Source: a virus. From it: a stretch of DNA of 46,688 bases. The stretch is from IMG/VR virus record IMGVR_UViG_3300044620_001600, positions 1 to 46,688 of that record, one strand, 5' to 3'. Made by a program: the position numbers and the translations under genes. Below, in pieces: positions 3,501 to 20,980 of the stretch. Each line of letters begins with the position of its first letter. Positions within the stretch are counted from its first letter, which is position 1. The notes beneath the pieces are model-generated. The model did not search any database. It was given only the letters and a program-made list of their open reading frames with translations, and had not been told where the DNA came from.

Positions 3501-6500
3501 GAAAACAATTAGAGATACACTTGAGATTCAATCTCCATCAAAAGTTATGATGCGAATTGGTCGTGACATCAAAAGAGGTTTAATACTAGGACTAGATGGA
3601 ATAAAAACTGAATTAAAATTTAAGGAGATAGAGATAAAAGATTTTGTCGGGAAAGTAAAATCCTTAGACCGTGAATCTTTAAAAACTAATGTCCAAAAAG
3701 CAGGGAAAAGAATTTTTAATGCACTTCCTAGTAATGTAAGAAGTGAAGTAAAGTTTAGACAATGGGAGATGGAAGAATCTGCCAAACAAATGCAACCCCT
3801 AAACCGTGAAACAATAAAAACAAATATTAAACAGGTAGGGAGAAAAGTTTTTAATATTGGAGGGATTCTTGATAAAATTGATGATTTTAAAAGTAAAAGT
3901 AAGTTAGAGCAATTTAGCACCATTGCTGATAAAGTTGAAAGATCACTTGATAAATTACCAGAACCAATTAAGAAAGTTGCTGGACTAATAAGAAACGCAA
4001 TATTAGGTATAGTTGGTTTTAACATTCTTGAATCAACTATTGGTTTATTAAATAAATTTGGAAAAGAAGCTTTTCAAACAGCAATTGAAGCAGAGCGGTT
4101 AGAAATGGCTTTATCCTTAACCACAGACGACGCTGAGTCTGCTTTATCTAGGCTAAAAGTACAAGCAGATAAACTTGGAACATCTTTTTTGTCTTCTGCC
4201 AAAAACTATCAGCAGTTTAGTGCTGCTGTAATGAACACTTCACTAGAGTTTCAAAAAGATAAAATTTTTGAAGGAATAACATTAGGATTGGCTACTAGAG
4301 GTGCTAATTCTCAACAGCAAGACAGAGCTTTACTAGCTATTACTCAAATAGCTAGTAAAGGTCGTGTTTCAATGGAAGAACTTAACTCTCAGTTAGGTGA
4401 AGCAATGCCAGGCGCGTTACAGATTGCCTCTAGGGCTTATGGTGTAACGGCTCAAGAATTTATTAAATTAATTGAGTCTGGATCAGTAGCATCAGATGAA
4501 TTTTTGTCGAAATTTGCAACTCAAACTACTTTAGAATCAGCAGGAGGGATTAATGTAATTAATGACACGGCTTTTGCTCAAGTTGCAAAACTTGAAAATC
4601 AATTAAACTTGCTTCGCGTAGAAATGGGAAAACCTTTATTAGAAGTGGCTAAATTAGGGATACCTACAGTTATCAGTGGACTTACGACTTTAGAGGATCA
4701 TGGAGATAAAATTGTAGCTACTTTTGTTTCGATGGGGATTGTTGTATCGGGTGTATTTGTTCAAATGTTACACAGGCTTGGTCTTTTAAAGTTAGGGCTA
4801 AAAGCACTAGGAGTTACCGCAGCATCTACAAAAGCATCAATTGCACAAATAGGTATAGGATTTGTTAAAGGGCTAGGATGGACTGCTTTAGTCTTTGGTG
4901 TAATGGAAGCTTTTAAAGGGCTTTATCAATACATCAACGCAGGCTCTGAAGAGTCTAAACGATCTCTTAAATCAACTCAAGAATCGTTACAAGAATTGAG
5001 ACGATTACTAGAAAAACCTTTACCTACACCTAAAGCTTCTACTGTTATAACTGATAGTGCAACTGCAATTCAGCAATTTAAAAACAACAGAGAAAGAGAT
5101 AAAAGTTTAGAGTTTACTGCGGGGGGACTAAGTGATACAACACAAATCTTAAAATTATCAACTGACACATTTAGTGATACAAAGATTACCGAATTTACGG
5201 GTAACCTTGACACATTGCGGCAAAAAGCGAAAGACCTCAAGATAGATGAAATCATAGCTAGTGGAAATGCTGACGTTAAAAAAGCTACATCTGTTCGTCA
5301 AGAAATTGCGAAAGTAAACCAAGAAATACAAGCTTTAACGGAAAAATACTTTCCTCAAATTGGGCTTATTGTTAATGAGATAGCATCTACAGAAGAAAGA
5401 ATTACAGCAATTAAAAAAGTTTTAGATGATCCAGGGTCTTCTAGTTCCCAAAAAGATAATGCTAGGATCCAGCTAGAAATTACTGAAGTTCAACTTAGAA
5501 AATTAAAAGAATCGCAAGAAAAATATAACGAAGCAGTCAAAGAGAATTTAATCAACTATCAACGATTAACAGAACAAATAAATAAAGTAGCAAGAGCTTT
5601 ATTTAATATTGAATTTGTCTCTAGTGGACGAACTATTTTGTCTGAAACAGATATTAAACGACAAGTTTTATCTGGGAACCTGAAGCCGTTTGAAATAGAT
5701 TTGACCGTTAGAGAACAGAGCCTATCTATTGTCAAGGATCAGTTTAATTCGCTTAATGGATTACTGGCAACTAAAGAAAAAGAATTACAAAACACCCTAA
5801 CAGATCTGATTAATCAGCGAATAACTGAGTTAATGCCTGAATTAAATGGAATAGATTTTAGAACGGCATTACAGCAGGGAAGTGTGTCACCAGAAGCTAT
5901 AGGTGATCGGTTACAACAGTTGGGAGATCAAGCGCCTTTTGAATTAAAACAGGTATTAGAAACAGCTAAACAGCAAGCATCTATTAGACGACAAACTTTA
6001 ACTATTGATAAATCAATTGTTGATACAGAACTAGAAATTGCTAACGCTAGACGAGAGCGCGCAAGAAATGCCAGACAAGCATCAATAGTCGGTGCCAATG
6101 TCAACGAGAGAATTGCTACTTTAAGGCAATTACCCTTTGGGGGTCCAGCCGCTTCCTATCAGGATGCCTTATCAGAAGTTCGCAACCAAGAGAGATTATT
6201 AGGAGAGGCTTATCGTCGATTAGAAAGTGCGTCAGACGATCCTAATGTGATTCAGCAAGAGGTTGATAATACCCGATTAGCCCTAGAACAAGCCCGCGCT
6301 AACCTATTACAGCAACAAACATCACTACAAGACTACTACCGCAACCTTGACCGTCAGATAATCGACTTTAATCGTCAGATTGAGGATTACAGAAGACAGA
6401 TTGAAGACGCTCAACTGTCAGCATTTAAAGAAAATCGTTCCCTATCTGAAAGTTACAGTGATTTAGTCAGAGAACTCGATAAGAACCTCTTAAATGCCCA

Positions 6501-12532: not shown

Positions 12533-12565
12533 GAGGCGATACCGTGGGAAGTTAGATTGTAATTC

Positions 12566-12798
12566 GATTGTTAATAACCTTATTAACAATCGAAATCTTT
12601 GCCCTGTCTAGGTTTCAGGCTTTGTCGATGTCGTTGATGTCGTATAGAGAAAAAAAGAAAATGGGGTAAAAAGGAAAGACAGCCTCAGCAGTAAGAGCGT
12701 AAAAAAATAATATCGGGGGATAGTGTCAACAGTATCAACAAAGTCTAGAAGCTATATATACCAAGGGTTCTATTGTTAATAACAATATCTACAATCTA
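12566..12798. repeat. Intergenic element A (~233 bp), diverged copy of 20750-20980
   Basis: This non-coding block aligns almost end to end with 20750-20980. The shared blocks include CTAGGTTTCAGGCTTTGT (identical, 12608-12625 and 20792-20809), a GGGGGATAG-type block followed by AACAGTATCAACAAAG, TAAGAG-GTAAAAAAA and ATCTACAATCTA. Both copies begin with a hairpin; here it is 12563-12594, a 14-bp stem around CGATTGTTAATA with an ACCT loop. No reading frame is conserved. Origin, partition site or structured RNA are all possible. Confidence 0.8.
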
Positions 12799-12990: not shown

Positions 12991-13131
12991 TCAGTCATCG
13001 GGTAAACTTCTAATCAATTCCCGGATTACCTCGGTTATTGACCGCTTTTGGGCTTTACAGTAGTTTTTTAGCTTTTTCTCTTCTGATTCTGATGTACGGA
13101 CGTTAAGAGGATAATAATTTTTACTTGACAT
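12991..13131 (-). CDS. Ribbon-helix-helix (CopG/Arc-like) DNA-binding protein, 46 aa
   Basis: The reading frame runs from ATG (complement of 13129-13131) to TGA (12991-12993). The protein starts MSSKNYYPLNVRTSESEEKK and continues with a helix-turn-helix of the ribbon type (KNYCKAQKRSITEVIRELIRSL). It has one basic beta strand (YYPLNVRTS) followed by two helices, the standard RHH layout, and would act as a dimer. Its start codon lies inside the -35 box of a + strand promoter at 13125, and a near-copy of that promoter stands before the nuclease gene at 13586. It may therefore repress itself, the 93-aa gene and the nuclease. No clear Shine-Dalgarno sequence is seen. Confidence 0.75.
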   Translation of the reverse strand: MSSKNYYPLNVRTSESEEKKLKNYCKAQKRSITEVIRELIRSLPDD

Positions 13132-13576: not shown

Positions 13577-13585
13577 ACTTCTTAC

Positions 13586-13614
13586 TTGACATTTCTAGTA
13601 GGGTTATGGTAAAT
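13586..13614 (+). promoter_or_regulatory. Promoter of the Cas12-like gene (copy 2 of the TTCTAGTAG promoter)
   Basis: TTGACA (13586-13591), 17-nt spacer starting TTTCTAGTAG, GTAAAT (13609-13614). It is almost the same sequence as at 13125. The nuclease ATG lies 38 nt after the -10, with AAAGGAAGG at 13627-13635 as a distant ribosome binding site. Confidence 0.7.
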
Positions 13615-13651
13615 TTAAATAAGAATAAAGGAAGGTCGATCCATAAAAGCC

Positions 13652-15328
13652 ATGCTAGTCAAGAAAACTATTGCGGACATAAAACTTAACCTTAATGCCA
13701 CTCAGCGAGCCTATATTGATCGCTGGATGGACGAGCTTAAAGCTGTCTGGAATTTTGGACTAGAGCTACTGATGGAATATCAGCTTAATAAATATTACGA
13801 CGAGCTTGAGAAAATAACAGGAAAACCAGTTAAACGGGTTAAACGTCGTTTAGCTAAAAAACCTCAATTTATTGACTCCCTGAAAAACGAAAAAGGTAAA
13901 TCCCTTCCTAATCCCCTTTACACCCCCAAATATTTAACTGGCAAGCAAAAAGTTAAAATACAGATAGCTAGAGAAAAAAGACAAAAAGCAGGTCACTCTT
14001 ATTCTGTTCATATTCCTATTCAACGGCGGTTAAAATCTGATAATTATTTTGGGTTATGTGGCTGTATTACAAAAGAAAAATGTCCAGAACTATGCAAGGA
14101 CATCCCTATGGCTTTTGTCCAAGGGGTTTTAAAAAAGCTTGCTGATTCCTGGAAAGCTTACACCAAACTCGATAAAAAGAATTTAGACAGGAAACTTCCT
14201 AGATTTAAAAGAAAAGAAGATAAAATTAAATCTCTTTATTCTGAGATCAGCGATTGCGCTGTTAGAAAAGGGGATAAAATATCTATAGGTAGCTGTGGTA
14301 AAACATTAGGCGATTTAAAGATTATCAACAATATCTTAGACATTCGGTGGGGTGACAGAAAAGCCTCTACCGTATCAATTATCAAATACCCATCGGGATA
14401 TTATCTAAGTCTATTTGGTGAATTTGAAGTAGATGATCTACCTGATTCCGATAAAGCAATCGGTATTGACGTAGGACTAGAATATATAATTAGTACCAGC
14501 GACGGACAACAAATTGACCCGCCCAAATACTATAGAAAACAGCAAAAAAGACTAGCAAAACTGCAAAGAAAAACCGCTAGACAGTATAAAGCAGGGGAAA
14601 ATAAAGACGGCAAAAATCTCGCTAAAACTCGTGCTAAAGTTGCTAAAACTCACGAAAAAATAGCAAGACAACGCAAAGGATTTAATCATGCCCTAAGTAC
14701 CGATATTGCTAGAAATCATGGCGCTGTAGCCGTAGAAGACCTCAACTTAAAGAATTTAATGCGACGACCTAAACCGAAAAAAAGAGAAGACGGTAAAGGC
14801 TACGAACGCAATAACGCGAAAGCCAAAGGGGGATTAAATAAATCCTTTGCTGATGCTAGTTTAGGGCAATTAACCGGTTTTCTTGAAACGAAAATGAAAA
14901 CTCCCAACCGAGAGTTTATCAAGGTTCAACCAGCTTACACCAGTCAGGATTGTCCTCGCTGTGGCAATCGTGTTAAAAAAAGTTTATCAACCCGCACCCA
15001 TAAATGTTTAGAGTGTGGATGTACTTTACCCAGAGATGTGGCCGCCGCAATCAACATCTTAGGGAAAGCAGACTTCGTAAGAAGCTACCCGGCTTGTACC
15101 GGGGAAGTTAAGCCTCTGAAGGATTTCGATAAGGAATCAGCGCAGGAGGAATTACTTGACAAGTCCAGCCGATTGTTACTTGGGGAAGAAACCCTCGAAA
15201 CCTTACTGGTTTTGACCTCCGAGCCAGTGACACCCAAGAAAAAAACAAGGAAAAGGTCGATCCACTCGCAACCCGCGCAAACAGTCAACGCAGGCTATAC
15301 GCAGCTTACACTCTGGGAGACTGGGTAA
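13652..15328 (+). CDS. TnpB-like / compact Cas12 (type V-U or V-F-like) RNA-guided nuclease
   Basis: This 558-aa effector has the full TnpB/Cas12 nuclease core. RuvC-I is AIGIDVGLEY with Asp273, RuvC-II is VAVEDLNLKN with Glu362, and RuvC-III is LPRDVAAAINIL with Asp462. A target-nucleic-acid-type zinc finger carries Cys434/437 (CPRCG) and Cys452/455 (CLECG). The N-terminus (LNATQRAYIDRWMDELKAVW) is the usual helical start. It is longer than an ordinary ~400-aa TnpB: the middle has an extra Cys cluster (136, 138, 144, 148) and the C-terminus is ~90 residues longer (469-558). The stop codon lies within the first CRISPR repeat and the C-terminal codons contain an anti-repeat. No TnpA, cas1 or cas2 is near. 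Cutting or binding DNA with crRNA plus an embedded tracrRNA is the inferred role. Subtype cannot be fixed by eye. Confidence 0.88.
   Translation: MLVKKTIADIKLNLNATQRAYIDRWMDELKAVWNFGLELLMEYQLNKYYDELEKITGKPVKRVKRRLAKKPQFIDSLKNEKGKSLPNPLYTPKYLTGKQKVKIQIAREKRQKAGHSYSVHIPIQRRLKSDNYFGLCGCITKEKCPELCKDIPMAFVQGVLKKLADSWKAYTKLDKKNLDRKLPRFKRKEDKIKSLYSEISDCAVRKGDKISIGSCGKTLGDLKIINNILDIRWGDRKASTVSIIKYPSGYYLSLFGEFEVDDLPDSDKAIGIDVGLEYIISTSDGQQIDPPKYYRKQQKRLAKLQRKTARQYKAGENKDGKNLAKTRAKVAKTHEKIARQRKGFNHALSTDIARNHGAVAVEDLNLKNLMRRPKPKKREDGKGYERNNAKAKGGLNKSFADASLGQLTGFLETKMKTPNREFIKVQPAYTSQDCPRCGNRVKKSLSTRTHKCLECGCTLPRDVAAAINILGKADFVRSYPACTGEVKPLKDFDKESAQEELLDKSSRLLLGEETLETLLVLTSEPVTPKKKTRKRSIHSQPAQTVNAGYTQLTLWETG
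15061..15324 (+). ncRNA. Candidate tracrRNA / omega-RNA-like region inside the nuclease 3' coding end
   Basis: This stretch codes for residues ~471-558 yet also shows RNA-like structure. Hairpins: CTTC-GTAA-GAAG at 15073-15084 (GNRA loop); CCCGG...CCGGG at 15088-15103; GATTTC...GGAATC at 15122-15138, enclosed by CCTC...GAGG; then the anti-repeat at 15152-15179; then CTTGGG...CCCAAG enclosing ACTGG...CCAGT. TnpB genes carry their omega RNA at the same place, overlapping the gene end. The boundaries are guesses. Confidence 0.6.
15152..15179 (+). repeat. CRISPR anti-repeat
   Basis: 15153-15179 matches the reverse complement of repeat bases 1-27 at 25 of 27 positions. One difference (15158, G opposite U) still pairs as a wobble, as does the extra base 15152; only 15166 (C opposite U) is unpaired. 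A chance match of this quality 146 nt before the array is very unlikely. It would base-pair with each repeat in the pre-crRNA. Confidence 0.88.
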
Positions 15329-15651
15329 CAATCGGCTTGACTTGTTAAGTAGATTGCAAGTTTGGCCCCCTCCGTAATCAAGAGAGTGATAGAGGGGTTA
15401 GTAACAATCGGCTTGACTTGTTAAGTAGATTGCAAGTTGCCAATTCAGATAGGGCGATAGGTCGTTGCCACGTAATAATCGGCTTGACTTGTTAAGTAGA
15501 TTACAAGCATTGCCAAAATTCCCGATCCTCGCTATCTAGGGGAGTAACAATCGGCTTGACTTGTTAAGTAGATTGCAAGTGCTATAATCGTTATACATTT
15601 TTAATCTCCTTTTTTGTAACAATCGGCTTGACTTGTTAAGTAGATTGCAAG
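15325..15651 (+). CRISPR. CRISPR array, five 36-bp repeats and four spacers
   Basis: Repeats at 15325-15360, 15401-15436, 15472-15507, 15544-15579 and 15616-15651. Each starts GTAACAATCGGCTTGACTTG and ends AGATTGCAAG. Four are identical; the third has two changes (GTAATAATC, ATTACAAG). Spacers are unrelated to one another: 15361-15400 (40 nt), 15437-15471 (35), 15508-15543 (36), 15580-15615 (36). The repeat can fold: CAATC pairs with GATTG, and inside that CTTGA pairs with TTAAG around a CTTG loop. The first repeat contains the TAA of the nuclease gene (15326-15328), so array and effector probably share a transcript. No leader, cas1 or cas2 is seen. Confidence 0.95.
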
Positions 15652-20614: not shown

Positions 20615-20749
20615 ATCTGTGATGTGTGTTTTACTTACTTTTCTAATATAGATCAATTCTCTCGACAGGTGTTGGCGAAGTGTGCCAGTTTATCAAGTGT
20701 CACTATAGGTACTTTTGTATCAAATATATCTACTGTTCTTTTGTAACCA

Positions 20750-20980
20750 GATTGTTAATAGGGTTATCGACAATCGAAACCTTTACCCTGACTAGGTTTC
20801 AGGCTTTGTTAATGCCGTTGACGGATCATAGAGGAAAAATAAAAAGGAAGGAATAATAAACAGACTAGACAATAAGAGTGTAAAAAAAATAATATTGGGG
20901 GATAGCGTTAACAGTATCAACAAAGGATGAAACCTATATATATCAAGACTTTCATTGTTAATATCCTTATCTACAATCTA
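20750..20980. repeat. Intergenic element B (~231 bp), diverged copy of 12566-12798
   Basis: This is the same element as at 12566. Its leading hairpin is weaker: GATTGT (20750-20755) pairs with ACAATC (20770-20775), and the inner bases pair with one G-T and one mismatch. So sequence changed while much of the pairing was kept. It stands just before the operator and promoter of the early operon. Confidence 0.8.

Follow-up and report, generated by a model that had tools for sequence, protein, structure and literature searches.

We analysed a virus record of 46,688 bases (IMGVR_UViG_3300044620_001600; the whole stretch is called the window) that carries a gene for a type V-U2 effector, C2c8 (Cas12u2), adjoined by a CRISPR array (Table 1). 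The encoded protein scores 368 bits against the curated C2c8 profile NF038192, which passes the cut-off of 350, as well as 418 bits against the PADLOC Cas12u2 profile and 223 bits against the guided_TnpB profile. Residues D273, E362 and D462, which we take to be the RuvC triad, and C434, C437, C452 and C455, which we take to be a zinc ribbon, are all present and are invariant in our effector alignment A5. Judged by these sequence features, the gene encodes a type V-U2 effector carried by a phage. Cas1 was found in none of the seven virus records searched, the window included (Cas2 was not searched, and the records may be fragments), and a Y1 transposase was likewise found in none of seven.

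Within the coding end of this gene lies a segment that pairs with the repeats of the array. A sequence-only reading of the window had proposed a tracrRNA-like (trans-activating CRISPR RNA-like) anti-repeat in the C-terminal extension of the nuclease, and we reproduced both the match and its place in the extension of the open reading frame (ORF). Compared with repeat bases 1-27 read as their reverse complement, the segment agrees at 25 of 27 positions, and the two differences are a G-U pair and a mismatch; the closest rival elsewhere in the window, both strands considered, agrees at 18 of 27. RNAduplex gives the duplex -43.0 kcal/mol. Pairing this good was seen in none of 200 dinucleotide shuffles of the tail, none of 500 shuffles of the repeat and none of 400 synonymous recodings of the tail, the best of which reached -32.9. 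Chance as the source of the match is excluded. The anti-repeat lies on the strand that yields a tracrRNA for a plus-strand array; by its complementarity and its strand, it has one of the marks of a tracrRNA-dependent system. An embedded tracrRNA is well supported and, on this pattern, in all likelihood real. Whether to call it a separate tracrRNA, as had been suggested, is another matter: the RNA core and the array share a strand 145 nucleotides (nt) apart, and the two could be one transcript.

Close relatives keep the pairing while the codons change. In viral contigs, we found 37 loci whose best segment is 95-100% identical to the window (clade A). The anti-repeat is kept in all 33 that reach the site; the other 4 end before it. 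Two anti-repeat bases opposite a UU of the repeat vary (GA in 27 sequences, AG in 6 and AA in 1, the window counted), and every version pairs, with the codon reading GAC, AGC or AAC (Asp, Ser or Asn). In addition, a T-to-G change in 7 of 221 clade A repeats makes the duplex perfect. Codon changes were counted in 22 loci plus the window, leaving out the frameshifted L029 (L numbers are our handles for loci), L005, L025, L026, L028 and shorter pieces. The 82 codons of the tail show 7 synonymous and 6 nonsynonymous changes and no break among 16 distinct sequences; the 476 codons of the body show 50 and 36. The arrays themselves differ, with 89 distinct spacers in 38 sequences including the window. 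The records of L006 and L027 (G004 and G005) each hold two different C2c8 genes, with matches about 1.4 kb apart, and the second C2c8 of L006 ends in a clade C tail.

Co-folding of the tail region with the first repeat yields a structure more stable than that of shuffled sequences. The fold of 15080-15362 reaches -98.5 kcal/mol compared with -75.1 for shuffles (z -4.67; 0 of 200 shuffles as stable) and consists of two hairpins followed by an anti-repeat:first-repeat stem of 26 pairs over 27 positions. The earlier suggestion that the anti-repeat sits among several hairpins thus stands for this longer fold, in which two hairpins precede it, but not for the 103-nt core folded alone, which adopts a different fold of ordinary stability (z -1.01; 34 of 200 shuffles as stable). 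A hairpin at the position of hairpin 1 is invariant in clades B and D and covaries in clade C.

To place the window among more distant C2c8 loci, we used a three-sequence profile that found 4 loci in genomes and 59 in viral contigs, 27 of the latter once more from clade A; a scan of genome contigs with a single protein confirmed no relative, and phage CL131 and the cyanobacterial plasmid loci came from separate searches. Among 388 genomes of one cyanobacterial class, 7 had a C2c8-like match at an expectation value (E) of 1e-60; L170, L173 and L174, new lineages with arrays, come from these 7. The loci fall into clade A with the window, clade B (CL131, L077-L079, L081 and L082), clade C (the Microcystis plasmid L041 and others) and clade D (L048, L074 and others). 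In a tree of representatives, 14 of 19 inner branches are well supported and some long branches drew a warning; the row T_L099, 96 residues cut at an inner methionine, says little.

In the coding end of clades B and D, a shared stretch of about 124 nt lies between hairpin 1 and the anti-repeat; this core bears the marks of a conserved RNA. Two-sided changes occur in 12 of its 33 pairs among 9 distinct sequences, and the number falls to 0-3 once the partners are slid out of register. Paired cells make up 99.3% compared with 91.5% after shuffling (0 of 500 shuffles as high), a figure favoured by RNAalifold having taken the structure from the same alignment and one in which cells are sequences, not events. 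Third bases of four-fold degenerate codons point the same way: between L077 and L074, 10 of 10 are unchanged in the core versus 62 of 138 in the body (Fisher p 5e-4), and those shared in the core are all unchanged in each of seven B/D comparisons, which share sequences (p 5e-4 to 0.013). In clade C, two-sided changes were seen in 4 of 59 pairs, two of them in hairpin 1. The omega RNA of TnpB overlaps the 3' coding end of tnpB. The sequence-only reading had placed its element over the corresponding codons, and the claim is strengthened both by pairing that is kept while the codon varies and by the covarying cores of relatives. Conservation of codons and of RNA pairs, which it had wanted compared, indicates dual constraint in clades A and B/D.

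The B/D core model also recognises, at E 1.6e-4, two C2c8 loci on Chroococcidiopsis plasmids (L042 and L043, around position 4300) that show no array in view. The zinc ribbon and RuvC motifs of their C2c8 have decayed, and the protein could be a nuclease-dead RNA-guided regulator. The same model reaches clade C solely at a useless E-value (L085, E 5.1) and L047 at E 0.29.

Does each lineage carry an anti-repeat that is cognate to its own repeat? In clade B, a cognate anti-repeat stands 132-145 nt 5' of the array. When both strands of the locus are considered in full, the best duplex of L077, L082 and CL131 lies 134-145 nt 5' of the array; members differ in their letters here and still pair (p 0.002, 0.002 and 0.024, respectively). 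The clade C anti-repeat ends 163-171 nt 5' of the array (L041, p 0.010), so that the distance is alike in A, B and C (132-171 nt). For clade D, L048 gives p 0.012, and its segment favours its own repeat (-21.1 versus -7.6 to -14.2). The L074 segment scores -17.0 with the L048 repeat versus -15.9 with its own, and the L080 segment reaches just -9.4 with its own; own-repeat preference in clade D is weak. The clade D anti-repeat may be split, with CAATTAA pairing with the 3' part of the repeat and CCTCAAAGGT..CACC with the 5' part. Judged by these tests, a cognate anti-repeat is present in clade B, has mixed evidence in D and draws weaker support from C. The combined p for one member each of A, B, C and D plus L170, L173 and L174 is 3.6e-5, or 0.001 without A, and is optimistic, as the B, C and D members were chosen and are the best or equal best of their clades. 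Arrays near L098 and L100 and the second array of L102 were left out of the significance test, and high-scoring minus-strand matches downstream of arrays were set aside as unmasked repeat copies.

The coding frame continues past the RNA to a short motif at the end of the protein. The window tail ends in QLTLW plus three residues, a fit to the consensus for binding the bacterial sliding clamp; bacterial clamp-binding proteins carry a C-terminal QL(S/D)LF (PMC9690074), and transposases are described as using motifs of this type (PMC4549789). C2c8 tails are poorly conserved overall, and the motif recurs: QLTLW in clades A and B, QLTIW in C and D, QLSLNLW in L047, QLSLW in L172, QLTLW in L177, QLGLF in L173 and QLSFW in L174. 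In total, 15 of 25 C2c8-group rows have it (four T_ rows were set aside, and N_L175 repeats F_L044). Among 1,087 distinct ORFs of at least 100 residues from the DNA in view, 35 have the motif in their last 25 residues, and 29 of these are C2c8; 5 of the 6 others end exactly in QLSLF. Phage proteins of 285-313 residues that end in QLSLF (L125, L130 and L134) are possibly clamp-binding. The L080 phage encodes a DNA polymerase III beta clamp (G012:C1:34750-35832) about 4 kb from C2c8, and no beta clamp was found in the 6 other records searched. The motif is absent from L083, where the tail is deleted, from L042-L044, L098, L100, L170 and L176, and from L087-L089, where a stop arises inside the anti-repeat. 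CL131 as annotated lacks it owing to an in-frame stop, and SHTQLTLW persists there in another frame 5' of the array. This recurrence suggests a possible link, through the C-terminus, between a Cas12-type nuclease and the replication clamp; the top-ranked results of our literature search held no report of clamp binding by Cas12 or TnpB.

Table 1. Features at and around the C2c8 locus, in window coordinates
Feature	Position	Strand	Remarks
Promoter-like TTGACA-18-TAAATT, 36 nt 5' of effector gene	13586-13615	+	consensus match only
Type V-U2 effector C2c8 (Cas12u2), 558 residues	13652-15328	+	profile matches
Hairpin 1 of predicted tracrRNA core, inside coding sequence	15083-15109	+	fold of 15080-15362
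Hairpin 2 of predicted tracrRNA core, inside coding sequence	15113-15149	+	fold, single sequence
Protospacer for clade C array spacer (L093), 35 of 36 bases, runs into anti-repeat	15122-15157	-	spacer match
Anti-repeat within effector codons 501-510, pairs with repeat bases 1-27	15153-15179	+	TACTTGACAAGTCCAGCCGATTGTTAC
Codons for QLTLW, fits bacterial sliding-clamp binding consensus	15302-15316	+	consensus from PMC9690074, PMC4549789
Effector stop codon TAA, bases 2-4 of first CRISPR repeat	15326-15328	+	sequence
CRISPR array, 5 repeats of 36 nt and 4 spacers of 35-40 nt	15325-15651	+	adjoins effector gene

Several other features of the window deserve mention. Promoter-like sites number 14 compared with 10.0 expected. 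A repeated motif, TACTTGACA (family D4), stands at 13122, 13583 and 21052; the first two copies are promoter-like, and the one at 13583 lies just 5' of C2c8. A sequence of about 240 nt occurs in two copies (12557-12798 and 20741-20980) that are 77-84% alike and lie outside the listed ORFs of 80 residues, and the first copy carries long inverted arms. At Rfam gathering scores, a tRNA was the sole match in the window; an ARAGORN call of tRNA-Phe at 14849-14945, inside the C2c8 gene, is without an Rfam counterpart and probably false. An AlphaFold2 model built on 12 sequences was poor (mean predicted local distance difference test score 47.6; 310 of 558 residues below 50, including the tail 478-558), and we conclude nothing from it.

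The spacers offer a view of what these systems target. We collected 301 spacers of at least 25 nt from V-U2 arrays and accepted matches with up to 8 mismatches outside recognised repeat borders; the 49 spacers of L049, a Microcystis genome locus, were excluded because most of its array has a host-like repeat. Seven spacers match DNA in view. The targets of five lie in other cyanophage records from these groups and that of a sixth in the record that holds the spacer; the seventh matches its own locus weakly, with 8 mismatches. One target, for a spacer of the clade C array L093, is the clade A effector tail and tracrRNA region itself, matched from a rival array. A 5' flank of GTC or GTT stands at one or more targets for 4 of the 7 matching spacers, and likewise for the weak one. 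Arrays of the window, L006 and L102 gave nothing at E 0.01 against the phage collection. In two exact scans of viral contigs, one spacer was found solely in contigs whose arrays hold it; an exact scan with a 16-base piece of another gave, outside arrays, partial matches only.

At L049 (4164-7762), two phage-type repeats run into a 48-repeat array of the other, host-like repeat. Spacers of this locus match the window phage at 17737-17784, 19419-19453, 26975-27005 and 27385-27415, and GTY flanks 6 of the 8 L049 matches; a protospacer-adjacent motif (PAM) of GTY is a tentative guess. The matches to the window phage point to Microcystis, a bloom-forming cyanobacterium, as the probable host of the window virus. 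Since Cas1 was absent from the seven records searched, we propose that the phage arrays may be filled by host adaptation proteins.

Altogether, we propose a phage-borne V-U2 system in which the 3' end of the effector gene doubles as tail codons and as the tracrRNA for the adjoining repeats, a reading to which we give a probability of roughly 0.8. The last 240 nt or so of the gene would be used twice. The two hairpins and the anti-repeat would form a tracrRNA that pairs with each repeat, giving a scaffold held by C2c8, much as the 3' end of tnpB acts in cis for TnpB. A single transcript would span the effector gene, the tracrRNA core and the array, and the anti-repeat:repeat duplex would be cut by C2c8 or RNase III. 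The resulting complex would cleave DNA of competing cyanophages, with the QLTLW tail tethering the nuclease to the sliding clamp. We propose that the clamp-like motif, encoded 3' of the RNA, is the reason that the frame is kept open through it. A wider view is tentative and on balance doubtful: V-U2 effectors would be clamp-tethered, replication-coupled RNA-guided nucleases of phage-versus-phage use, whose clamp-binding tail and tracrRNA occupy the same bases and co-evolve locked together, with a rival's spacer aimed at that shared stretch and L083 a step back towards a one-piece guide. In L083, a clade D phage, the tail and QLTIW are deleted and a putative anti-repeat lies directly 5' of the first repeat (5360-5640); a natural one-piece guide is possible there, and the duplex is not significant.

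Several results weigh against the tracrRNA reading. The frame or tail is broken in CL131, L087-L089, L083 and L029/L072, and the codon role is therefore dispensable in some loci. The stability of the window core folded alone, given above, is unremarkable, the B/D covariance model misses the window at E up to 10, and third-base conservation is not significant in any of three clade C comparisons. Also in clade C, the anti-repeat tests of L087 (p 0.140) and L093 (p 0.082) are not significant, and 100 of 200 tail shuffles do as well for L049. In clade D, position-specific tests give p 0.120 for L074 and 0.499 for L080, tail shuffles do as well in 172 of 200 (L074), 200 of 200 (L080) and 160 of 200 cases (L083), and the best duplex of several loci lies in mid-gene (4573-4600). 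Homologues that lack the anti-repeat, which the sequence-only reading had named as telling against it, are absent from the 33 close relatives but do exist further out: the array-bearing lineages L170, L173 and L174 have none at the expected distance (p 0.74, 0.76 and 0.53), and Gloeobacter L044 has none among its best matches. No target in view was found for 294 of the 301 spacers. Finally, a table in a 2024 review lists V-U2 without a tracrRNA (PMC11641405); we take that listing to be incomplete, rather than the window locus to lie outside the family.

Other explanations fare less well. The anti-repeat:repeat stem might serve in the regulation or processing of the effector mRNA, for example as an RNase III site or an autoregulatory switch, and have no part in the guide complex. 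The first repeat does lie close downstream and folds with the anti-repeat, and TnpB is described as processing its own mRNA (PMC10278001). However, a plain cleavage site needs no conserved, covarying core 5' of the anti-repeat such as B and D possess, and a tracrRNA inside an effector mRNA is on record for Cas12n (PMC11641405), which makes this alternative unlikely. Slightly less likely again, C2c8 might use CRISPR RNA alone, with the embedded RNA a vestige of TnpB omega RNA. The review table fits such an account, as do the locus description of CL131, whose authors found no tracrRNA (PMC6293099), and the locus L170, where an array is present and both tail and anti-repeat are missing. A vestige should drift, whereas in A and B the pairing follows the repeat, and pair changes in the B/D core are compensated. 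That the match arose by chance or from a stray repeat unit in inverted orientation, with the tail purely protein sequence, is very improbable and already largely refuted: repeats can scatter, the match covers just part of the repeat and several C2c8 lineages show no anti-repeat, but the window match and recoding statistics exclude chance, the position is similar in A, B and C, and pairing survives codon change in A and letter differences among B.

According to a 2025 classification, type V variants have arisen from TnpB independently about 50 times (PMC12669027). That the window captures an intermediate between omega RNA and tracrRNA, as first suggested, is plausible and unproven. One candidate for an earlier stage is L047, which alone among the relatives with no array in view has an intact RuvC triad. 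The tree gives no support to L047 as a pre-CRISPR form: it is placed as sister to the window's clade (96/95, with a long-branch warning from the program). With this placement, loss of an array is just as probable as a pre-CRISPR state; L047 could also have an array on a different contig. The idea of an intermediate is itself in print for Cas12n, which a review discusses as a possible step from TnpB to other Cas12 proteins (PMC11641405).

What is new is a predicted tracrRNA for V-U2, for which the top-ranked results of our literature search held no report, together with a QLTLW-type, clamp-like tail motif; neither this motif nor the dual constraint would be expected by a specialist. A subtype that the review table gives without a tracrRNA would gain a concrete and testable guide scaffold, the isolated phage CL131 included. 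The locus would also be a natural case of one DNA stretch under protein and guide-RNA constraint together, and the QLTLW-type motif could be what keeps the reading frame open along the RNA. Moreover, versions of the locus with an open frame, a broken frame, a deleted tail or no array in view are all available, and they bring the passage from omega RNA to tracrRNA within reach of experiment.

How does the window locus compare with known systems? LaTranC reportedly embodies the splitting of a guide RNA on the way from transposon to CRISPR, the same step as proposed here. The window effector has a weak, distant sequence match to its Protein Data Bank chains (9jfo, E 6.9e-7). The closest likeness is the V-U2 locus of cyanophage vB_AphaS-CL131, described in 2018, which shares the effector family, the cyanobacterial phage setting and an array adjoining the gene, with no other cas genes in the reported locus (PMC6293099). 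That description gives the tracrRNA as absent; we found an anti-repeat and RNA core in CL131 itself (L040, 4369-4518), where the coding frame across the core is broken and the window's is open. Type V-N (Cas12n, C2c9, V-U4) resembles the window in that its tracrRNA lies inside the effector mRNA, and differs in its effector family; the review's account of Cas12n mentions neither a QLTLW tail nor a stop codon in the first repeat (PMC11641405). TnpB of IS200/IS605 likewise draws its scaffold RNA from the effector's own mRNA (PMC10278001). In the window, unlike in a TnpB-omega RNA transposon, no Y1 transposase was found, an array follows the gene, and the scaffold pairs with the repeats of that array.
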